Notes under the pieces: generated by a model
What the model was told of the DNA's origin: nothing
The model's database searches: none
The model's input: only the letters and a program-made list of their open reading frames with translations
Shown: positions 7,457-19,426 of the stretch, one piece after another
Layout: each line of letters starts with the position of its first letter
How positions within the stretch are numbered: the first letter of the stretch is position 1
Program-made: the position numbers and the translations under genes
NCBI GenBank assembly: GCA_025059745.1
Contig: JANXDH010000002.1
Span: 1-58,922, forward strand
DNA length: 58,922 bases
Direction: 5' to 3'
Source of the DNA: Aigarchaeota archaeon
GTDB lineage: Archaea; Thermoproteota; Nitrososphaeria_A; Caldarchaeales; Calditenuaceae

Positions 7457-7759
7457 ATGGGCGTCCCTCTCTTCATATGCAGGAGGTGCGGACGCGCTTA
7501 TCCCAAGCAGAGGTACAGATGTAGAAGGTGTGGATCACCCGAGTTCAACGTACTAGAGGCCTCTCATGGCAAACTCGTCTCATTCACCGAGATACACGCT
7601 GTGAGGGTTGGATTCAAGAGGCCTCTACGGTTGGGAGTGGTGGAACTCGATAATGGCGGCAAGGTCGTTGGCATCCTAGACCTCGCCGACCCCAAGATGG
7701 GCGATAGGGTCGTGGTCACGAGGAACTCTAACCTCAATTTCATCAAGCCGGCAGACTAG
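7457..7759 (+). CDS. DUF35 OB-fold/zinc-ribbon partner of the thiolase-like protein
   Basis: A 100-residue protein with an N-terminal rubredoxin-like zinc ribbon (CRRCG and CRRCG, about residues 8-12 and 22-26) and a C-terminal OB-fold. This is the DUF35 (acyl-CoA-associated) architecture. DUF35 proteins bridge acetoacetyl-CoA thiolase and HMG-CoA synthase in archaea and bind steroid-type aldolases in actinobacteria. Here the ATG follows the thiolase stop with no spacing, so a complex with that protein is very likely. No HMG-CoA synthase gene is nearby. The stop overlaps the convergent transporter ATPase gene by 4 bases. Confidence 0.88.
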   Translation: MGVPLFICRRCGRAYPKQRYRCRRCGSPEFNVLEASHGKLVSFTEIHAVRVGFKRPLRLGVVELDNGGKVVGILDLADPKMGDRVVVTRNSNLNFIKPAD

Positions 7760-8439
7760 ACCCCCACGTACTTCGCATAGAGCTTATAGATATTTGTCCC
7801 CTCATATAACGACTCTGGTCTATCATCGATGGCGAAGGGGCCCGCGATCTTACCCTCTCTCATGAAGATGACCTCGTCTCCTATCTCAGCGGCCTCGAGC
7901 GGGTCGTGCGTGACGTACAGGAAGGGCACTCTTACCCTCTTTAGCTCGGCCCAGAAGAACTTCCTGTTGGGCCAGTCCAAGTGACTGGTTGGCTCATCGA
8001 GCAGCATCACGGACGGCTCCCTCATCAGACACACGTTCAAGAGTAGAACCTTATACTCACCACCGGAGAGGTGATCCTTGTTGAGAAGTCTGCTCATTAC
8101 AGGTGATTCCCTGAACCTCTCCCAGTCGAGACCCCACATCCTCGTGAAGGTCTTGACGATCTCCCTCGGTCTCATCCTTATCAGGGGAACCCTCTGGGGC
8201 ATGTACGCTATGGACCTCCGCTCTGGAGGCAGCCCAGTCACGTCCGACCCGTTCACCGTAATATTACCACGCAGAGGCTTTATGAGTCCTGCTATGCATC
8301 GAAGCAACGTCGTCTTTCCGGACCCGTTATGCCCCAGCAGAACCACCTTCCCATCGACTCTCACACCATCCACGTGGACCTCAAACCCCTTTAACCTCAC
8401 CACCAGGTCACTTACCTCCAGACTACCCATCTCGCTCAC
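7756..8439 (-). CDS. wtpC: Tungstate/molybdate ABC transporter, ATPase
   Basis: A 227-residue ABC ATPase with all motifs intact: Walker A GHNGSGKTT, Q-loop YMPQR, signature LSGGE, Walker B VMLLDEP and H-loop VTHD. It lacks the C-terminal TOBE domain of ModC-like proteins, so it is shorter than usual. It overlaps the permease gene by 17 bases and belongs to the same minus-strand operon as the permease and binding protein. The assignment to oxyanion uptake rests on the WtpA-like binding protein and the divergent ModE-like regulator. Confidence 0.82.
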   Translation of the reverse strand: MSEMGSLEVSDLVVRLKGFEVHVDGVRVDGKVVLLGHNGSGKTTLLRCIAGLIKPLRGNITVNGSDVTGLPPERRSIAYMPQRVPLIRMRPREIVKTFTRMWGLDWERFRESPVMSRLLNKDHLSGGEYKVLLLNVCLMREPSVMLLDEPTSHLDWPNRKFFWAELKRVRVPFLYVTHDPLEAAEIGDEVIFMREGKIAGPFAIDDRPESLYEGTNIYKLYAKYVGV

Positions 8440-9127
8440 CGATCAAGACGAGGAGCGTGGCGAATATCACTGCTATCCCCACCAGTAGCAGGGAGGCGCC
8501 GATGGTGTACGCGAGGCCGCCCATTAGGAACGACTCGTAAATGTATATCCCTGCGGTCACGGGTCTATGAGCGATAATGAGGAAAGCCCCAAGCTCGGAG
8601 AACGACCTCAGCCACGCCAGTAGCAGGCCAAGGACGTGGGACTGAAGGGAGGACCTCGTGTAGAACCAGTAGACCCAGTACTCCTTGACGCCCAGCGGTC
8701 TCAGGAACTCGTTCAACTCAGGCCCCATAGACTTTAGGGCACCCCTCACGGTAGCGAACGATAGTGGGGTAGATACGATCAACATCGCCAAGACTATCGC
8801 GATCCATGTATCGATTGCACCTAGGCCCCTTACCAGCGGTAGAAGTAAAACGCCTATCGCGGTATGGGGGATCGCAATGGGAAACATTATCAGGGGCGTG
8901 AGGAACCTCCTGGATCCGTTCATAGTGAAGTAGGCCAGCACCGAACCCACCGGAGTAGCAATCAGCGCTGCAACGGTTGATGTGAGCGCCGAGTTGACAA
9001 TGGCCGCGATGGCATCGTCTTGGAAGATCATCAACGGGGTATTGATTACTGGCAGGACAATCAACGCAGCCAAGTAGATCGATATTAAGGACAGGGATGC
9101 GAGCAGGATCGGCTGCAGCTTCATCAA
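8423..9127 (-). CDS. wtpB: Tungstate/molybdate ABC transporter, permease
   Basis: A 234-residue inner-membrane permease with five to six hydrophobic helices and the binding-protein-dependent transport signature region around FLRPLGVKEYWVYWF, the EAA-type loop that contacts the ATPase. Length and order (binding protein, permease, ATPase) match WtpABC/ModABC. It is separated from the binding-protein gene by one base and overlaps the ATPase gene. Confidence 0.82.
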   Translation of the reverse strand: MMKLQPILLASLSLISIYLAALIVLPVINTPLMIFQDDAIAAIVNSALTSTVAALIATPVGSVLAYFTMNGSRRFLTPLIMFPIAIPHTAIGVLLLPLVRGLGAIDTWIAIVLAMLIVSTPLSFATVRGALKSMGPELNEFLRPLGVKEYWVYWFYTRSSLQSHVLGLLLAWLRSFSELGAFLIIAHRPVTAGIYIYESFLMGGLAYTIGASLLLVGIAVIFATLLVLIGERDG

Positions 9128-9128
9128 G

Positions 9129-9998
9129 TCACGGGCCCACCCTCATGAGACCGTGTCTCTCTAGCTCCACCGTCCCCATCATCTCTAGTATCCTGTCACC
9201 GCGCTCTGTAAAGGAGACCGCGCTAGCCTCGAACTTTCTGACCTCCACATCACCCACCCTAAGCCTAGCGATGAACCTCATCGGCGGGTCCACAGTGAAC
9301 TCTATCTCAGGGGGGAGATCGATGACGTGATAACGGCCGATGAGACCCTTCCACATGGCGAAAGGTTCGTGGACAAAGATGCAATCTACCAGACCGGCCT
9401 CGAATATGGCGCTGACCTCCGAGAGGTCGTTACGTAATATGAATTGACGGGACGGGTTCAGACCTCTGAGATCGAGCAAGACGCCACCTTCGATGGGATT
9501 CACATTGATGCCCAACAAAACCTGCAACCTATCGGACATTGCAGGGTCTTGGACCTTGAGGAGATAATAAAGGGCCGCAACAGCTCTGTATCCGATGGGC
9601 GCAACGTTCGGGTCAGCGAGCGCAATCGTACGTTCAATTAGTTGATTTAAAGTGAGATTCTCCCTACAGAGGGCGATCAGCCTGTAGCTCCCCAGGCTAA
9701 CGCGATTCCTGTAATCGGGGAGGAACCTCTCGAGCTCGTTATCCGCCAATAAGAGGACGTCTGGTCTACGCCCCTCCCTGATCAATTGAACCGATATGAC
9801 GCTACCGATGACCCTGACGTCCGAATCTGCAGGGGCCCTCGAGAGCACTTCCCTGACGAGTCCGGTGAGCGTGGGTGCCACATAGATCACCGGCCCAGAA
9901 CGCTCCTGCTCACCTATCCGGCCCCATAGCGCGGAGATCGAAATTAGCGCCGCGAAGACTGCCAGTAGGACCGCTAGATTCCTGCGTCCTATATTCAT
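9129..9998 (-). CDS. wtpA: Tungstate/molybdate-binding lipoprotein or anchored protein
   Basis: A 289-residue extracellular binding protein with an N-terminal membrane anchor (residues 6-24, RNLAVLLAVFAALISISAL). The mature part follows the ModA/WtpA pattern: VIGSVISVQLIREGRRPDV, then a stretch ending GSYRLIALCREN, and a DPNVAPIGYRAVAALYYLL segment corresponding to the family's 'DP-x-x-PxGYR' metal-oxyanion site region. WtpA-type proteins prefer tungstate; ModA-type prefer molybdate; the sequence does not settle which. It is the first gene of the operon, with a TATA box at about 10024-10035. Confidence 0.78.
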   Translation of the reverse strand: MNIGRRNLAVLLAVFAALISISALWGRIGEQERSGPVIYVAPTLTGLVREVLSRAPADSDVRVIGSVISVQLIREGRRPDVLLLADNELERFLPDYRNRVSLGSYRLIALCRENLTLNQLIERTIALADPNVAPIGYRAVAALYYLLKVQDPAMSDRLQVLLGINVNPIEGGVLLDLRGLNPSRQFILRNDLSEVSAIFEAGLVDCIFVHEPFAMWKGLIGRYHVIDLPPEIEFTVDPPMRFIARLRVGDVEVRKFEASAVSFTERGDRILEMMGTVELERHGLMRVGP

Positions 9999-10023
9999 AC
10001 CGGATCCCCTGATACGTCCGCAG

Positions 10024-10035
10024 ATATATTAACTG
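10024..10035 (-). promoter_or_regulatory. TATA box of the wtp operon
   Basis: The minus strand reads GTTAATATATCT here, about 26-37 bases before the wtpA ATG at 9998. The element lies just beside the tandem repeats at 10047-10066, so a regulator bound there would be upstream of this promoter. Confidence 0.55.
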
Positions 10036-10046
10036 TTATCAAAAAA

Positions 10047-10066
10047 GTTCATATCGGTTCACATCA
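10047..10066 (+). promoter_or_regulatory. Tandem 10-bp repeat, candidate ModE-like operator
   Basis: Two 10-base direct repeats, GTTCATATCG and GTTCACATCA, agree at 8 of 10 positions and are set exactly one helical turn apart. They lie between the divergent wtpA and modE-like genes. Spacing and place fit an operator read by the ModE-like protein, but no archaeal ModE consensus could be compared here. Confidence 0.4.
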
Positions 10067-10077
10067 AATAAATTAAC

Positions 10078-10605
10078 GTGGTTTGGGGAGGGAAAGTATC
10101 GATCAACGTTGGGGGAACGAAAGTCACTCTTCTCAGGCGTCAACTTGAGTTCCTTAGCAGGGTCGATAAGTGGCAGTCCATCTCGAAGGCCTGTAGGGAG
10201 ATGGGCATCAGCTACAGGACCGGCCTGAAGTGGAGGGCGGATCTGGAGCGCGCGGTGGGTGGCAAACTGATCGATTCATCTAAAGGAGGTAGGGGTGGCG
10301 GGGTCTCAACAACAACACCCCTAGGGGTTGAGGTCCTCCAGTCATATTACATCGCCCTATCGCTCGATAAACCCGGTATGGTGAAGAGCCTGATCGGCTC
10401 GAGGATGAGCGCCCGTAACGTATTGAGGGGGATCGTGAGGGAGGTGACCTGTGACTCACTCATATGCAAGGTCTCCGTCGTGATACAGACACCTCAACCG
10501 TTGGTCGCGCTGATAACAGCGGACGCCGCGAGAGAACTGGATTTGAGGGAGGGCGACTCTGTCTCAGTGGTCCTGAAGGCGCTGGACACTATACTGATCA
10601 AGTGA
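10078..10605 (+). CDS. ModE-like molybdate/tungstate-responsive regulator
   Basis: A 175-residue protein with an N-terminal LysR/ModE-type winged helix (about residues 15-70; KACREMGISYRTGLKWRADL is the helix-turn-helix) and one C-terminal TOBE/Mop domain (about 107-172; MSARNVLRGIVREV and ALITADAARELDLREGD). ModE normally has two Mop domains; archaeal forms with one are known. In this family oxyanion binding to the TOBE domain alters DNA binding. It is divergent from wtpABC and likely controls it. The start is GTG at 10078; no better start is visible. Confidence 0.8.
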   Translation: MVWGGKVSINVGGTKVTLLRRQLEFLSRVDKWQSISKACREMGISYRTGLKWRADLERAVGGKLIDSSKGGRGGGVSTTTPLGVEVLQSYYIALSLDKPGMVKSLIGSRMSARNVLRGIVREVTCDSLICKVSVVIQTPQPLVALITADAARELDLREGDSVSVVLKALDTILIK

Positions 10606-11798: not shown

Positions 11799-12317
11799 CT
11801 ACTTTTGATCTTGGCCGACATGAACCATCTTCATAGTCGGAGCCTTTATCTCGATAGCGACGTATTGCGGACTCTCCTCGGGCACCACCCTGTGGGCAAC
11901 ACCTCTAGGTATCAGTATCATCGTACCGGGCGTTAAGACGGCCTTACCCAACTCGGTCTCCCAAGTGACCTTTCCGTTCAAACAGATTATCAGCTCGTCG
12001 TTGTCCATGTTCCTGTGCCAGAACGGCATCGGCCTCCTCCTCTTGGAGACCTCTACTGAGAACCCGTTCACGTACTGGTTCCCCTCGGACGGGTTGGGTG
12101 GGGCTATCCCACCTTGTATGACCTTCCACGTCCCGGCTCCCGCATCTTGATAGTTCGGTGTAATGAACTCGGGTGAGAGCACTTCTAGCTTGAGCGCCGC
12201 GGGGTAGTCCACGTTCAGAGGAATCATCTTCCGCTTCAACCAGTAGTCGGAGCCATTGACTGTCACGCGCTCGTCGACCTCTATAACCTCTCCCTCCGTC
12301 TTGATTGCTTGTGTCAC
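11799..12317 (-). CDS. Cupin-domain protein
   Basis: A 172-residue single-domain cupin (residues about 85-165). The first cupin motif region reads FWHRNMDNDELIICLNGKVTWE and the second TPGTMILIPRGVAHRV. The metal ligands H, D/E and H are largely present. The layout resembles the homogentisate or 3-hydroxyanthranilate dioxygenase cupin, but it is much shorter than homogentisate dioxygenase. It may be a metal-dependent dioxygenase or isomerase acting on an aromatic or ketoacid. A TATA box at about 12337-12355 supports the ATG at 12317. It lies next to the UbiD gene, divergent from it. Confidence 0.75.
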   Translation of the reverse strand: MTQAIKTEGEVIEVDERVTVNGSDYWLKRKMIPLNVDYPAALKLEVLSPEFITPNYQDAGAGTWKVIQGGIAPPNPSEGNQYVNGFSVEVSKRRRPMPFWHRNMDNDELIICLNGKVTWETELGKAVLTPGTMILIPRGVAHRVVPEESPQYVAIEIKAPTMKMVHVGQDQK

Positions 12318-12504: not shown

Positions 12505-14043
12505 ATGTCTTTTCAACAATCGGATAAACATAATGACTTGAGGAGCTTCTTAGAGATCCTCGAGCGTGAAGGTCACCTGAGGAGAGTGAAGAACGAAGTC
12601 GATGACAAGCAAGAGATACACTGTATAATGTGGGAGCTTCATGAGAGGTATCACGCGGACGCCCCGACGGTACTCTTTGAGAGAGTCAAAGGCTTCAGGG
12701 TACCGGTGGTGAAAAACGTACTCGGAAGCTTCAAGAGGATGGCTCTCGCATGCAGGATGCCCAACTGGAAGAAGGCCACCAAGAAGGACGTCGTGAAACA
12801 TCTGGTCGCAACGTTCGATGCAAGGGATAAGTGGTTAAAGCCGCGTATCGTCGACAAAAAAGACGCGCCGTGCAAGGAGGTTATAAAGATCGGAGAGAAC
12901 GCAAGTCTACACGAATTGCCTATACTGAAGTGGCATGCGACGGACGGCGGGCCGTTCATACTAATGGGGAATGCAATAACTAAGGACCCGGAATGGGGAC
13001 ATAACGTAGGTACGTATAGGGTTCACATAAAGGGACCGAGAGCTTGTAACGTGGTCGCCAATCAAATGCAGGACATTGGGATCTTTCTCAACAGGGCGAG
13101 GAGGAGAGGAGAAAAGGAGATAGACATCGCTATCGCGATAGGAGGCGATCAAGCCCTCTACATTAGCGCCGGAGTCAAGAACCCGCAGATAGGTAGGGAC
13201 AACGAGTTCATGATAGCCGGCGCTCTGAGGGGTGAACCCCTCGAATTGGTCAAGGGAGAGACAGTTGACGTACTGGTGCCCGCTTCTGCAGAGATCATTA
13301 TAGAGGGCAAACTCAGTACGCAGACGGAGGACCTACAAGATGAGGGGCCGTTCGCAGAGTGGATGGGCTACTCCGGTGCTGTCACGAAACAACCGAGCAT
13401 AAGGGTGACCGCGATAACTCACAGAAAAGATCCGATATTCCAGTCATGCATCTCCGCTCATAGATACAGTGAGACGACCATGCTTTACTCAATACCGTTC
13501 ATAAGGTGGTACTCCCAGATGAGGGAGATCGTACCGGGCTTCAAAGACCTCAACATGCCTGAGGAGCTGAGGATGTACTATGCGGTCATCTCGATCACCA
13601 AGAGGTATCCTGGATGGGGCAAGAACGCCATCTACGCGGCGTTAGGTTCAGGTTACGGACAAGCGAATCTCGTGGGCGTGATAGTGGTAGATGACGACGT
13701 AGATCCATACGACATGGAGCAGGTCTTGACGGCAGTGTCTACGCGTGTAGACCCAGAGCTCGACATAGTGATCCTTCCGCCGAGCACGACACACGCCCTC
13801 AACCCTAGCGCGCGAGCAATACTGCCTGTAAGGGAACCGGGACTCGCTTTCGCCATGTGCTCGAGGATCGGCATAGACGCCACGAGAAAGATGGTCGATG
13901 AGTACGGCAGGAGCAGGGCTACGCCGCTATACGTCGAAAGGGCTCCGGATCAGGAGACGTTAAAGAAGGTAAGGGAGAAGTGGGCTCAATACGGATTAGA
14001 CGTCGACCTCAAGGCCGTTCAGATAGAGCAGCTAGCCAGTTAA
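12505..14043 (+). CDS. UbiD-family prenylated-FMN decarboxylase (first of two)
   Basis: A 512-residue UbiD-family enzyme, full length. It needs the prenylated FMN made by UbiX to remove or add CO2 on an unsaturated or aromatic acid. The N-terminus LRSFLEILEREGHLRRVKNEVD is typical of the family. The prFMN region NVGTYRVHIKGPRACNV is present. The Glu pair of the active site is seen in DEGPFAEWMGY (E-G-P-F-x-E), and PASAEIIIEG precedes it. The gene has its own promoter and is followed by the acyl-CoA-synthetase-like gene on the same strand, 25 bases on, with a ribosome-binding site between. Real substrate unknown. Confidence 0.9.
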   Translation: MSFQQSDKHNDLRSFLEILEREGHLRRVKNEVDDKQEIHCIMWELHERYHADAPTVLFERVKGFRVPVVKNVLGSFKRMALACRMPNWKKATKKDVVKHLVATFDARDKWLKPRIVDKKDAPCKEVIKIGENASLHELPILKWHATDGGPFILMGNAITKDPEWGHNVGTYRVHIKGPRACNVVANQMQDIGIFLNRARRRGEKEIDIAIAIGGDQALYISAGVKNPQIGRDNEFMIAGALRGEPLELVKGETVDVLVPASAEIIIEGKLSTQTEDLQDEGPFAEWMGYSGAVTKQPSIRVTAITHRKDPIFQSCISAHRYSETTMLYSIPFIRWYSQMREIVPGFKDLNMPEELRMYYAVISITKRYPGWGKNAIYAALGSGYGQANLVGVIVVDDDVDPYDMEQVLTAVSTRVDPELDIVILPPSTTHALNPSARAILPVREPGLAFAMCSRIGIDATRKMVDEYGRSRATPLYVERAPDQETLKKVREKWAQYGLDVDLKAVQIEQLAS

Positions 14044-14068: not shown

Positions 14069-15466
14069 ATGTCATCCAATCCCCCAAAGCACCCTCTAAA
14101 GTCAGTAATCTATCCTCGTTCAATCGCTGTAATAGGCGCATCGGGCACTCCAGGTAAGATCGGATACCAGATACTCAAGAACGCTATCGACCAGGGATAT
14201 AAGGGTAAGATATTTCCCATAAACCCCTCAGAGAGCGAGATAATGGGCCTGAAGGCACACGCCAACGTGAACGACGTCCCAGAAGAGATCGATCTGGCGT
14301 GCATCATTGTACCCAATAACGTCGTCCCTCAGGTAGTGGAGGAGTGTGGAAAAAAGGGCGTGAAGGGCGTTATAATTTACGCGGGCGGGTTCGCAGAGAT
14401 AGGAGAGAAAGGCGCGGAGCTACAGAGGAAGATCGTTGAGGCAGCGAGCAAGTACGGTTTGAGGGTATTGGGCCCCAACATCAACGGCATGTTCAACGGT
14501 TCCATAAGCCTCAACGTCAGTTTCAACCAGTTCAAGACACTCGACGGTCCCGCGGCAATAGTCAGTCAGAGTGGGAGCTTCGCGAGTGGTGTGGTCTTCG
14601 AGTCGATAAGGTGCGGGTTCGGGTTCAACAAGTTCATAATTTTGGGTAACAGGGCTGACGTAAACGAGATAGAGGCCCTAGATTTCCTCTCATCTGAGCC
14701 GGACGTGAAGGGAATCGCGATGTATCTGGAGTCCATAAGTGACGAGAGGTCATTCATAGAGGTAGCGGCTAGGACCACTAAACAGAAGCCTATAGTCTGC
14801 GTTAAAGCAGGAGTTAGTGATGCAGGAGTACGTGCCATAAAGTACACGACCGCCTCCGAGGTCAAGGGCGACCCCTTCATGAGCTCGATCTTCAAAGAGA
14901 GCGGGGTCGTGATGGTCAAGGACGGTGAGGAACTCGTAGACGCACTCTTCGCTCTAATACACCAACCACTTCCGAGAGGGAATAGAGTGGGGATAGTAAC
15001 TAACTCGGGGGGGATAGCCGTGATATTGACGGACCGGTTGGGTGAGCTGGGGATGAAGGTCCCGCACCTCTCGGAGCCCGTCAGGCAGAAACTCTCCAAG
15101 ATCATGTTGCCCATAGGGAGCGCCCATAACCCAGTCGACCTCACAGGCAGCGTGACCAAGGAGAGCTTCAGGGACTCCCTGACAACCTTGATCGAGAGCG
15201 GAGAGGTCGATTTGGTCATTGCAACTGCGATAAGGTCCCTCTTCTTGCCCCTCGAGATCTTCGAGGGCGCTTATACGGAGGCGGCCGAGATAGCGAGGAG
15301 GAACAGCGTCCCGTTCTTGGTCTGCATGATGGGTGATGATAAGATGTTCGATCTCTTCTCTTCCCTGAGGAGTAAAGGTATACCCTGCTATCCTAGCCCT
15401 GAGAGGGCCGCGAAGAGTGCGTATCATCTTTACGAGTACTCCAAAGTAAGAGAGATAGCTGCGTAA
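14069..15466 (+). CDS. Acyl-CoA synthetase (NDP-forming) alpha-like protein without catalytic His
   Basis: A 465-residue protein with the two parts of the NDP-forming acyl-CoA synthetase alpha subunit. Residues 1-140 form a CoA-binding Rossmann domain (SIAVIGASGTPGKIGY, ending GLRVLGPNINGM). The rest is two flavodoxin-like ligase domains (AIVSQSGSFASG and GIVTNSGGIAVILTD). In active enzymes the segment after SEAGA(K/R)AA reads SHTG, with the phosphorylated His. Here it reads YTTA after SDAGVRAIK, so the His is Thr260 (14846-14848). No ATP-grasp beta subunit is seen in the window. It may bind CoA or acyl-CoA without making ATP, or act as a scaffold for the flanking UbiD enzymes. Confidence 0.85.
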   Translation: MSSNPPKHPLKSVIYPRSIAVIGASGTPGKIGYQILKNAIDQGYKGKIFPINPSESEIMGLKAHANVNDVPEEIDLACIIVPNNVVPQVVEECGKKGVKGVIIYAGGFAEIGEKGAELQRKIVEAASKYGLRVLGPNINGMFNGSISLNVSFNQFKTLDGPAAIVSQSGSFASGVVFESIRCGFGFNKFIILGNRADVNEIEALDFLSSEPDVKGIAMYLESISDERSFIEVAARTTKQKPIVCVKAGVSDAGVRAIKYTTASEVKGDPFMSSIFKESGVVMVKDGEELVDALFALIHQPLPRGNRVGIVTNSGGIAVILTDRLGELGMKVPHLSEPVRQKLSKIMLPIGSAHNPVDLTGSVTKESFRDSLTTLIESGEVDLVIATAIRSLFLPLEIFEGAYTEAAEIARRNSVPFLVCMMGDDKMFDLFSSLRSKGIPCYPSPERAAKSAYHLYEYSKVREIAA

Positions 15467-15489: not shown

Positions 15490-17118
15490 TTATTTATCCA
15501 TGTAAATCCTCTTCTTCTCTAGTCTCTCCCCGATCTTGTAGTGCTCTCCCTTCAGCAAGAGTTCCGCGTCCATTTCGTGATCCTTCGTCCAGTAACCTAA
15601 ATTATATCCGTACCACGGCGACTTTAGCTTTAGCTCTGGCAGTCCCAACTCCTTCCAGAGCTCTATCGCCCTCTCCATGAACTCCTTCTTTGGTAGGGAG
15701 GTCGGAGGATAGGGGTACTTGGTCGTCGCGTCAATCAATACAGCAGAGCTGCCTATTCTTCCGGGGTACTCCTTCTCCCTAGGCTCTGAATCCGGCCTGT
15801 ATGCTGACACGTCTAATCCAGGTATTCTGCCGTGTATCACCAGCATATCAGTATCGGGTTGCACCCTCCAGCTCAGTGCCCAGATGACCGAGTCGACGTC
15901 CCTGGCATCTATATCCTCGTCTACAACGATGTAGAACTTGCCCCACCTAGCGTCGTATCCCGCGGCGCAGTGGAGTACCTGCCACGGATGTGCGTTGTTG
16001 ACCTTCTTTATCCTTATCACGCACCATTGAGCCTGACTCATCTCATGCCATGCAACGTCGAGTATCCCTGGTAGCTTACAATCGTACTTCAGGTACTTGT
16101 AGTAGAGGTTCTCCGACGAGACGAGCCTGACCTTACTGCTCTCACTCGGCGGGAACTGACTCATGATGTGGACGTATATCGCGTCCCTCCTCATCGTGAC
16201 GGCCGTTACGTGGAAGACAGGCCTGTAAAGGACATCAGTGGCCATGTAACCTGTGTACTCACCGAAGGCGTTTCCGGGCTCCATATACTCGGTAGAGACC
16301 ATCCCCTCTACTATGATCTCCGCATGTGCCGGCACCTCAAGGTCGATCGTCTTACACTTCACTAGTTCGATGGGCTCGTTGGCGAACCCTCCACATACAG
16401 CCAACTCGTCGACGCCATAAGGTAATTTAGCAGACGCAACGTAAAAGAAGATAGGAGGACCACCGATCACTATCGCCGCTGGCATCGGTTTCTTTATCTC
16501 CTTCCACATGTTCCAGTGAATCCATCCGTGATTAGCCCTGCTGATCTCCCATAGTAGTTTTATCTTCCCGAAGACGTGGCCCGAATAATTCCCCATATTC
16601 CTCCACTTTCCATCAGGTGTCTTCGTTATTATGTGGGTCGATGTCCTTATCTGACCGCTGAAGCCGGGGACCTCCACTGGTATGGGCAAGGCCTCTATAC
16701 CCTTCCCGTCCTCCAGTAATTGATCTCCGGTGTAGACTACCTCCTGTACCGGACCTGAACTGACTATCTTCGGCTCTATCGGTTCCTTCACGGCCTTCTC
16801 CCATTTCCTCCCTATGCCCTCATTCGTTGGTTCAGCCATGACTCCCATCGCGTACATCTTTAGACTGGACGCGTAGACTCCAGTCGCTACCTTTGTGGTG
16901 TAACGACGCCCCTTTGCATCTATAACGTTCTCGAAGAGGAAACCTTTCCTCTGATCGTCTGGTAGTCCCCTGAACTGGAGCCTGACAAGAGGTGTGAGCT
17001 CGGTCTCCTTCCGAACGGGCATGGTGACCCTTACCAGCATATCATTCGCTTCTAGAACCCTCAGCCACTCCCTCAGATCCTTGTAGTACCTCTGGGTGAT
17101 CTCTTGAGAGATGACCAT
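15490..17118 (-). CDS. UbiD-family prenylated-FMN decarboxylase (second, divergent paralogue)
   Basis: A 542-residue UbiD-family protein, clearly different from the first (longer, and of the subgroup with SRANHGWIHWNMWKE). The N-terminus LREWLRVLEANDMLVRV, PVEVPGFSG and PAHAEIIVEGMVS are typical. The active-site segment reads EPGNAFGEYTGY. The final Glu (FGE) is kept, but the position five residues before it, Glu in most UbiD proteins, is Gly unless a small shift is allowed. The C-terminus is extended (LELKSPWYGYNL). It is convergent with the ACD-alpha-like gene, with 23 bases between. It could act on a substrate different from the first UbiD, or form a hetero-oligomer with it. Confidence 0.88.
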   Translation of the reverse strand: MVISQEITQRYYKDLREWLRVLEANDMLVRVTMPVRKETELTPLVRLQFRGLPDDQRKGFLFENVIDAKGRRYTTKVATGVYASSLKMYAMGVMAEPTNEGIGRKWEKAVKEPIEPKIVSSGPVQEVVYTGDQLLEDGKGIEALPIPVEVPGFSGQIRTSTHIITKTPDGKWRNMGNYSGHVFGKIKLLWEISRANHGWIHWNMWKEIKKPMPAAIVIGGPPIFFYVASAKLPYGVDELAVCGGFANEPIELVKCKTIDLEVPAHAEIIVEGMVSTEYMEPGNAFGEYTGYMATDVLYRPVFHVTAVTMRRDAIYVHIMSQFPPSESSKVRLVSSENLYYKYLKYDCKLPGILDVAWHEMSQAQWCVIRIKKVNNAHPWQVLHCAAGYDARWGKFYIVVDEDIDARDVDSVIWALSWRVQPDTDMLVIHGRIPGLDVSAYRPDSEPREKEYPGRIGSSAVLIDATTKYPYPPTSLPKKEFMERAIELWKELGLPELKLKSPWYGYNLGYWTKDHEMDAELLLKGEHYKIGERLEKKRIYMDK

Positions 17119-17228: not shown

Positions 17229-17684
17229 ATGGCGAGGATCATAGGAAAGGTGCTGCCCGAGAGACTGAAGACGTATCTCGAAGAGAACAGGAGGGCGGAC
17301 GAGGGGAGCGCAATATTACTCGCAACAATCGACGGTGAGGGGTTACCACACTTCGCGATGCTGAGCGCGTGGGAGGTGCTCCCGGAGGACGGTAGGTTGA
17401 GGATAGCGACGTATAAGTCGTCTACCACGACGAGGAACATGAAGGAGAGAGGCTCAGTGGCTCTCGCCTTTATTGATAGAGAGATGAGTTACTACGTGAA
17501 GGGCGTGGCTGAGTTCATCAGATTCGAGGAGACTATAAACCCGCCGGTGGCCGTATTCCGAGTGAACATCTCAGCCGTACTGGAGGAGGAGGTCAGCTCG
17601 GAGATCTCGCAAGGTATCAAGTACAGGAAAGACTCTCAGATAGAGCCTCACAAGGAGGTCTTCGAACTGCTCTCGAGGAGGTGA
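17229..17684 (+). CDS. Pyridoxamine-5'-phosphate-oxidase-like FMN-binding protein
   Basis: A 151-residue split-barrel protein of the PNPOx-like/FMN-binding type. The segments AILLATIDGEGLPHFAMLSAWEVL and LRIATYKSSTTTRNMKERGSVALAF are the usual FMN-contacting strands. ATG 17229 gives the N-terminus MARIIGKVLPERL; a TTG immediately before would add one residue. Such proteins are oxidoreductases or FMN reductases. Its place beside UbiX and UbiD suggests help with FMN or prFMN supply or redox state, but that is inference. The 3' end overlaps the convergent UbiX gene by 37 bases. Confidence 0.7.
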   Translation: MARIIGKVLPERLKTYLEENRRADEGSAILLATIDGEGLPHFAMLSAWEVLPEDGRLRIATYKSSTTTRNMKERGSVALAFIDREMSYYVKGVAEFIRFEETINPPVAVFRVNISAVLEEEVSSEISQGIKYRKDSQIEPHKEVFELLSRR

Positions 17685-18265
17685 ACGCCTCCCTTGGGTG
17701 GTCCTGTCCATCTGGTATAGAGATCGTGCTCTATGCCGAGCAAATCGAGTACCTTTCCAACTATGTGATCAACGATCTCCTTAATGGTCTTTGGCCTGTT
17801 GTAGAAGCCCGGCATAGCAGGTACCACTATTGCGCCGCTCTCCGCCGCCAGAAGCAGGTTCCTTATGTGTGGTATCGATAGTGGCGTCTCCCTGGGGACC
17901 AATATCAGCGTCCTCCTCTCCTTCAAGGTCACCAACGCGGCCCTTATCAGGAGGTTCTCCTCATAGCCGTGCGCGATCCCGGCGAGCGTCTTCATGCTAC
18001 AAGGTATCACGACCATGCCGTTGGTAACGAAAGTCCCGCTGGCTATCGCAGCGGATATGTCCATGTGTTTGTAAACTTGATGAGCGAGCGATTCGACGTA
18101 CTCGACCGTGTACTCAGTCTCGAGTACTACCGTCTTTCCTGCTGCGGGGGTCAGAACCAAGTGGACCTCTACCCCCCTCTCCTTGAGCACCTCCAACAAC
18201 CTTATCCCGTATATGACACCGCTACCACCTGACATGCCGACGACAACCCTCATCGTTGAACTCAC
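17648..18265 (-). CDS. ubiX: Flavin prenyltransferase UbiX
   Basis: A 205-residue UbiX-family protein that makes prenylated FMN from FMN and dimethylallyl (pyro)phosphate, the cofactor of UbiD enzymes. Seen: the phosphate loop VGMSGGSGVIYG at the N-terminus, VTNGMVVIPCSMKTLAGIAHG, and the conserved LVPRETPLSIPHIRNLL and VVPAMPGFYNRPKT. The last 20 residues extend past the usual end and lie in the overlap with the convergent FMN-binding gene. A start at the second Met would trim only four residues. With two UbiD genes close by, this is their likely cofactor source. Confidence 0.92.
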   Translation of the reverse strand: MSSTMRVVVGMSGGSGVIYGIRLLEVLKERGVEVHLVLTPAAGKTVVLETEYTVEYVESLAHQVYKHMDISAAIASGTFVTNGMVVIPCSMKTLAGIAHGYEENLLIRAALVTLKERRTLILVPRETPLSIPHIRNLLLAAESGAIVVPAMPGFYNRPKTIKEIVDHIVGKVLDLLGIEHDLYTRWTGPPKGGVHLLESSSKTSL

Positions 18266-18334: not shown

Positions 18335-19210
18335 TTAACCACTAAGAAGACTGTCTATGTCATGATAAGCCTTATAATTGATTATCTCGTAGAACTCGTC
18401 GCGCGTCGTCATCTTATCCAACAGTCTCGCCTGTGTCCCCTCCTCTCTTATCGTTCTGAGAGCCTCTATAGTGGACTTGACGCACGTCCTGAACGTTGTG
18501 ACGGGAAATATGACGAACCTATATCCCAACTCACCGAACCTCTTCACAGAGATATAGGGTGTTTTGCCGAACTCGGTCATGTTGGCTAGTAGGGGGGCGT
18601 CGACACTCGATGCGTAGACCTCGAATTCTTTCTCTGACTCTAGGGCCTCGGGGAAGATCACGTCCGCTCCGGCCCTCGCGTAAAGCCTCCCCCTCCTGAT
18701 CGCATCGTCTATCCCAAACACAGACCTAGAGTCGACCCGCGCAATTATGACAGTGTCCGTATGACCCCTCGCAATAAGAGCAGCTTTTATCTTCTTGACC
18801 ATCTGATCGGGGTCGATTACCTCCTTACCGTCAAGGTGACCGCACCTCTTGGGCATAACTTGGTCCTCGATCTGAATAGCAGAGGCGCCAGCGTCTATCA
18901 GTTCTCTAACGGCCCTCATGACGTTGATCGGCTCACCGAAACCGGTATCAGCGTCGACGATCAGAGGTATCTTCGTGACCGACGTGATCCTTCGCGTGAA
19001 GAAGACGAGCTCGTCAAGCGTTATGAGACCGATGTCGGGTAGACCTAAGCTCCCGCTCAGAGCAGCACCGCTTAGGTAAACGGCCTCGAACCCTAACCTA
19101 TCCGCCAACAACGCGCCGATGGGATTGTAGACCCCCGGTATCGGGTGTACGCCACCCCTCATCAATTCTCTGATCGGGTTACCAGTAGTTGACGGACCCC
19201 CCGAGTTCAT
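18335..19210 (-). CDS. Isocitrate lyase/PEP-mutase family enzyme (methylisocitrate-lyase-like)
   Basis: A 291-residue TIM-barrel lyase when started at the ATG at 19210, matching the family's usual 280-300 residues. The open frame runs 53 codons further upstream, but that part overlaps the zinc-finger gene on the other strand. It also lies upstream of a TATA box (19236-19247) positioned for the 19210 start. Catalytic features: DADTGFGEP, the general base loop KRCGH and ARVDSR. Family members cleave 2-methylisocitrate, dimethylmalate or oxaloacetate, or make phosphonates. The substrate is not clear. It lies at the end of the catabolic island. Confidence 0.85.
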   Translation of the reverse strand: MNSGGPSTTGNPIRELMRGGVHPIPGVYNPIGALLADRLGFEAVYLSGAALSGSLGLPDIGLITLDELVFFTRRITSVTKIPLIVDADTGFGEPINVMRAVRELIDAGASAIQIEDQVMPKRCGHLDGKEVIDPDQMVKKIKAALIARGHTDTVIIARVDSRSVFGIDDAIRRGRLYARAGADVIFPEALESEKEFEVYASSVDAPLLANMTEFGKTPYISVKRFGELGYRFVIFPVTTFRTCVKSTIEALRTIREEGTQARLLDKMTTRDEFYEIINYKAYHDIDSLLSG

Positions 19211-19235
19211 GGTCTCTCTCCACGAGGTATCGATA

Positions 19236-19268
19236 AGTTTTAAACTTTGTAACGTGGATAAACTTATA
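19236..19268. promoter_or_regulatory. Divergent promoters, lyase / mini zinc finger
   Basis: The minus-strand TATA TTTAAAACTT (19236-19247) serves the lyase ATG at 19210. The plus-strand element ACTTATA (19262-19268) serves the zinc-finger gene. This arrangement decides both start codons. Confidence 0.5.
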
Positions 19269-19297
19269 GAGTGGGCCTCCTCCATATGGGAGATGGT

Positions 19298-19426
19298 ATG
19301 TCTGAGAGCGGAGTCAAGTGCCCGTACTGCGGTGCGAATTATAAGACGAACGCCGAGCTCTCCAAACACATAGACCGCTTACATATAGGCAGCGGTCTCT
19401 TGGAGGGTGACAAGACGAAGTATTGA
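19298..19426 (+). CDS. Mini C2H2 zinc-finger protein (42 residues)
   Basis: A small ORF with ATG 19298 and stop 19424-19426; an in-frame ATG at 19286 would add four residues. The product has one C2H2 finger: CPYC, twelve residues, then H, four residues, H (CPYCGANYKTNAELSKHIDRLH), followed by a short polar tail. Archaeal single-finger proteins of this size are known but their roles are mostly not. DNA or RNA binding is plausible. The ORF has its own TATA box at the right distance. The neighbours give no functional clue. Confidence 0.65.
   Translation: MSESGVKCPYCGANYKTNAELSKHIDRLHIGSGLLEGDKTKY

Follow-up and report, generated by a model that had tools for sequence, protein, structure and literature searches.

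What remains of the function of an acyl-CoA synthetase alpha subunit when the histidine that carries the phosphate is gone? The question is raised by a gene encoding an NDP-forming acyl-CoA synthetase (ACD) alpha-like protein, placed among UbiD- and UbiX-family genes in the window (the whole stretch of DNA analysed, 58,922 nucleotides). It corresponds to contig C6 in a single-genome sample whose assembly totals 1.17 Mb and is rated 88.8% complete. The features of the locus are collected in Table 1.

Table 1. Position of the alpha-like gene, of its sites of interest and of the neighbouring genes in the window
Feature	Position	Strand	Remarks
Cupin-domain protein, divergent neighbour	11799..12317	-	
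UbiD-family decarboxylase 1 (UbiD1)	12505..14043	+	RXnEX4E motif present; 25 bp upstream of the alpha-like gene, same strand
NDP-forming acyl-CoA synthetase alpha-like protein without phospho-His	14069..15466	+	465 aa
QSG, phosphate-site motif, kept	14567..14575	+	residues 167-169; role by homology to ACD structures
Glu221, kept	14729..14731	+	invariant across all aligned relatives
Phospho-His (swinging) loop, remodelled	14843..14866	+	residues 259-266, YTTASEVK vs SHTGSLAG in relatives; T260 (ACG) at 14846-14848
UbiD-family protein 2 (UbiD2)	15490..17118	-	RXnEX4E Arg replaced by S, first Glu by G
UbiX-family flavin prenyltransferase	17648..18265	-	
PrpB/PEP-mutase family lyase	18335..19369	-	above the methylisocitrate lyase cut-off

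The phospho-histidine and its loop

The open reading frame of the alpha-like gene starts with ATG and contains no internal stops. The Pfam domains CoA_binding, Succ_CoA_lig, and Ligase_CoA follow each other in this order in the protein, all above the cut-off, and the protein misses the TIGR02717 equivalog cut-off (437.4 vs 567.15 bits). The earlier note had read YTTA (residues 259 to 262) in place of SHTG, and every alignment to canonical members bears this out. Indeed, in the comparison with characterised ACD alphas, which had been proposed as a check, Thr260 pairs gap-free with the phospho-His column of 2csu, 4xyl (ckcACD1 alpha), 8wzu, and 9y43 (phmmer against the PDB), with no alternative His at the site. 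The pairing is also gap-free in MAFFT alignments with 39-72 relatives. Each of the 61 non-redundant relatives has a His in this column. Among the 173 tblastn matches scored (all loci fetched), 169 have it; the remaining four are two copies of the window gene, a gap-shifted SHTG (L101), and a bacterial fragment (L177). The phospho-His in an SHTG swinging loop, by which ACD alphas are recognised, is absent from the protein. A substitute His is ruled out, as residues 65 to 297 include none. The other reading frames hit stops and never restore SHTG, which excludes a frameshift or assembly slip, and a sequencing slip is also ruled out by the joint change of five conserved loop positions.

The change extends beyond a single codon. 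Taking as conserved the columns at 85% or more in the alignment of relatives (80 columns, six of them within loop residues 259-266), the alpha-like protein is altered at 5/6 in the loop vs 11/74 elsewhere (Fisher p = 0.001). In addition to this count, L264, an 80% column, is Glu; T261 is kept. Outside the loop, the protein retains the CoA-domain motifs, the Rossmann motif GAS, the residues G23/A24/S25/G32 and P50/N52/P53, the phosphate-site motifs G135-P136-N137 (GPN) and Q167-S168-G169 (QSG), and, further, E221, G314-G315, D322, and N354-P355-D357. The description of the domains as otherwise intact, given in the earlier note, holds for the CoA-binding and ligase-like domains, which are preserved, but not for the phospho-His loop, which is remodelled in its entirety. 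Apart from the remodelled loop, the protein is still recognisable.

The AlphaFold2 model of the alpha-like protein (49 aligned sequences) has a mean pLDDT of 93.5, the region of the phospho-His loop being less certain (76-84 per 10-residue block), and the closest structures found by Foldseek are, in order, ckcACD1 alpha (TM 0.93), PH0766, Nmar_0206, PatZ (TM 0.89), and DddX. Homology to ACD alphas spans the full length (ckcACD1 alpha, 4xyl, E 5e-90; PH0766, 2csu, E 1e-98), with domains, fold, and CoA- and phosphate-site motifs in common; unlike them, the window protein has the phospho-His and the surrounding loop replaced, scores below the TIGR02717 cut-off, and has no linked beta subunit. DddX and Nmar_0206/3HP-CoA synthetases share superfamily and fold with it but carry a fused ATP-grasp domain and are His-dependent.

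Relatives and the second alpha subunit of the genome

No ortholog of the alpha-like gene was found, and it is a singleton in one genome; of two ortholog pattern scans, the first was empty and the second gave distant relatives only. Conservation of the loop state and of the pairing with UbiD is therefore not demonstrated, and we keep our claim modest. The sole true His-less match besides the window gene is a partial ACD-like open reading frame (L177 3-974) on a contig assigned to Thermodesulfobacteriales. In it QSG is missing as well, and the gene next to it, in divergent orientation, encodes a complete fused ACD; it represents an independent loss of the His. In the tree, the alpha-like protein groups with a His-bearing alpha from a Bathyarchaeota genome (SH-aLRT 98), the gene of which precedes an open reading frame resembling, by eye, the alpha chain of indolepyruvate:ferredoxin oxidoreductase.

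The host genome encodes another full-length alpha, on contig C3 (C3:627990-629339, minus strand), which bears the His in a THTG motif; the two alphas are 34% identical and are not sisters in the tree. Convergent with the C3 alpha gene, and overlapping it, is the one ATP-grasp beta of the genome, unlinked to the alpha-like gene (ATP-grasp_5, PF13549 match at C3:627257-627916, ORF L042:9225-9932; catalytic His motif HKSDVGGV). The genome search for a beta subunit, also suggested beforehand, was thus positive, and the claim that no ATP-grasp partner is present is true of the window but does not extend to the genome. As an argument, the missing partner weighs little, because a beta is encoded elsewhere in the genome and because in Pyrococcus furiosus two betas are common to five alpha subunits (PMC3942289).

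One gene beyond the C3 alpha/beta pair lies a UbiD gene (C3:630188-631615), so that both full-length alphas of the genome adjoin UbiD genes. By a rough inference, such a coincidence in so small a genome is unlikely by chance, on the order of 1 in 1000, and points to a link between CoA and the substrates or products of UbiD in this organism.

The UbiD/UbiX neighbourhood

Five UbiD genes are present in the host genome, and a UbiD1 query detected no UbiD in 11 other genomes of the same family. Some UbiD enzymes have CoA thioesters as substrates, as phthaloyl-CoA decarboxylase does (PMC12016498), and the structures 8pmk and 8oz5 are among the matches of UbiD1 and UbiD2. It would therefore make chemical sense, though it is unproven, for UbiD1 to be served by a carrier of CoA thioesters.

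A conserved UbiD-ACD operon was considered and rejected: the UbiD loci of relatives are without ACD genes, with the exception of one genus, in which an ACD gene, a potassium-channel-like gene, UbiD, and a UbiA-like gene adjoin in a quinone-type setting. A genome of the same order (G029, L060-L065) has eight UbiD matches, several of them adjoining ABC ATPase genes and none with an ACD alpha beside it.

The alpha-like gene and UbiD2 are two adjacent genes of the window, each without catalytic residues. A UbiD2 paralogue of the same genome (C1:2554-4239, L059) has Ser for the Arg and Gln for the Glu, and L058 retains both residues.

Possible functions of the alpha-like protein

The His of characterised members shuttles phosphate from one site to the other, between CoA site and ATP-grasp domain: the ACD of P. 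furiosus works by a four-step, two-His phosphate relay (PMC4500148), the swing of the His-bearing loop bridges ~30 Å (PMC11494057), and the H292A change abolishes the activity of DddX (PMC8163506). By analogy, the alpha-like protein should neither make ATP nor be driven by it. As the phospho-acceptor is lost and the CoA-binding and ligase-like domains are preserved, the suggestion of the earlier note that the protein binds or handles CoA without ATP appears reasonable. The explanation that we favour, with chances that we would put at about even, is that this paralogue of the ADP-forming acyl-CoA synthetase alpha no longer relays phosphate and serves the UbiD/UbiX cluster as a CoA-thioester-binding protein. 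The relay to ATP would have been lost, whereas the fold is retained together with the motifs of the CoA and phosphate sites; CoA thioesters would be bound in the service of the adjoining (de)carboxylation genes, and the acyl-CoA may be held, passed, or sensed, uncoupled from ATP or ADP. Binding of CoA is predicted by homology, and we infer both the loss of ATP coupling and a functional link to UbiD.

His-less relatives are already known, namely the PatZ-type domain and FdrA/AllF. The ACD-like domain of Pat-type acetyltransferases is inactive and His-less, and it binds acetyl-CoA (PMC8556138), a fate that favours a carrier or sensor. The ACD-like domain of PatZ/Pat (9it0, 9isq) is similar to the window protein in fold and in the missing phospho-His, and the PatZ loop, NTTAG-MDP, locally resembles YTTASEVKGDP; however, PatZ/Pat have a fused GNAT domain, which the window protein lacks. 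The resemblance of the loops looks convergent, since PatZ is more distant in sequence from the window protein than the canonical archaeal alphas are. A split PatZ was also rejected, as there is no GNAT on contig C6.

FdrA/AllF of Escherichia coli, which is distantly homologous to the CoA-ligase alpha fold and likewise without the phospho-His loop (TM 0.47 to the alpha-like model), points elsewhere. It is a subunit of oxamic transcarbamylase and works with carbamoyl phosphate (PMC11326118), which favours a protein that has kept the first ACD step (acyl-CoA + Pi = acyl phosphate + CoA) and either behaves as a phosphotransacylase would or consumes acyl phosphates. The retained GPN and QSG motifs and Glu221 are consistent with this, as is the P. 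furiosus scheme, which needs the His from step 2 only (PMC4500148). We nevertheless consider this reading unlikely: remodelling has affected the loop itself, the neighbourhood showed no conserved enzyme of acyl phosphates, and the reading is weakened because acetate kinase and phosphotransacetylase families are not detectable in the genome to use the acyl phosphate, which also excludes a phosphotransacetylase stand-in paired with acetate kinase. FdrA is not a close full-length relative (the ACD family profile gives it a partial match of ~16 bits) and works with AllG/AllH.

A redundant gene on its way to being lost, with the His loop as the first part to go, seems quite improbable. The gene is a singleton with a long end branch (1.32 vs a median of 0.6), but that of the His-bearing paralogue is equally long (1.36); moreover, the reading frame is unbroken, the protein retains most of the invariant motifs, and its fold prediction is confident. 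It is very doubtful that the protein is an active ACD alpha pairing with the C3 beta, the phosphate being moved directly or by another residue: the beta has its own His motif and P. furiosus alphas share unlinked betas (PMC3942289), but a domain without the His would need its loop to bridge the ~30 Å, and all the characterised members cited use the His to carry the phosphate. Equally doubtful is an ACD alpha turned into an ATP-independent transacylase or carrier coupled to UbiD, perhaps with the degenerate UbiD2.

It is rare for a stand-alone ACD alpha to lack the phospho-His: the ~170 relatives examined include one other, the bacterial fragment. If active, the window protein would test whether the acyl-CoA/phosphate half-reaction can proceed independently of ATP, and would connect a His-less ACD alpha with prenylated-flavin (UbiD) chemistry. 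Such genes should not be annotated as acetate-CoA ligases.

Elsewhere in the window, positions 7756-10605 hold a probable ABC transporter (ATPase, permease, and binding protein) adjoining a TOBE/HTH regulator, an arrangement that resembles molybdate or tungstate uptake loci. On C3, beside the alpha/beta/UbiD cluster (L042 4802-9089, G000), open reading frames resemble by eye LarA, LarC, LarB, and LarE of the nickel-pincer cofactor.
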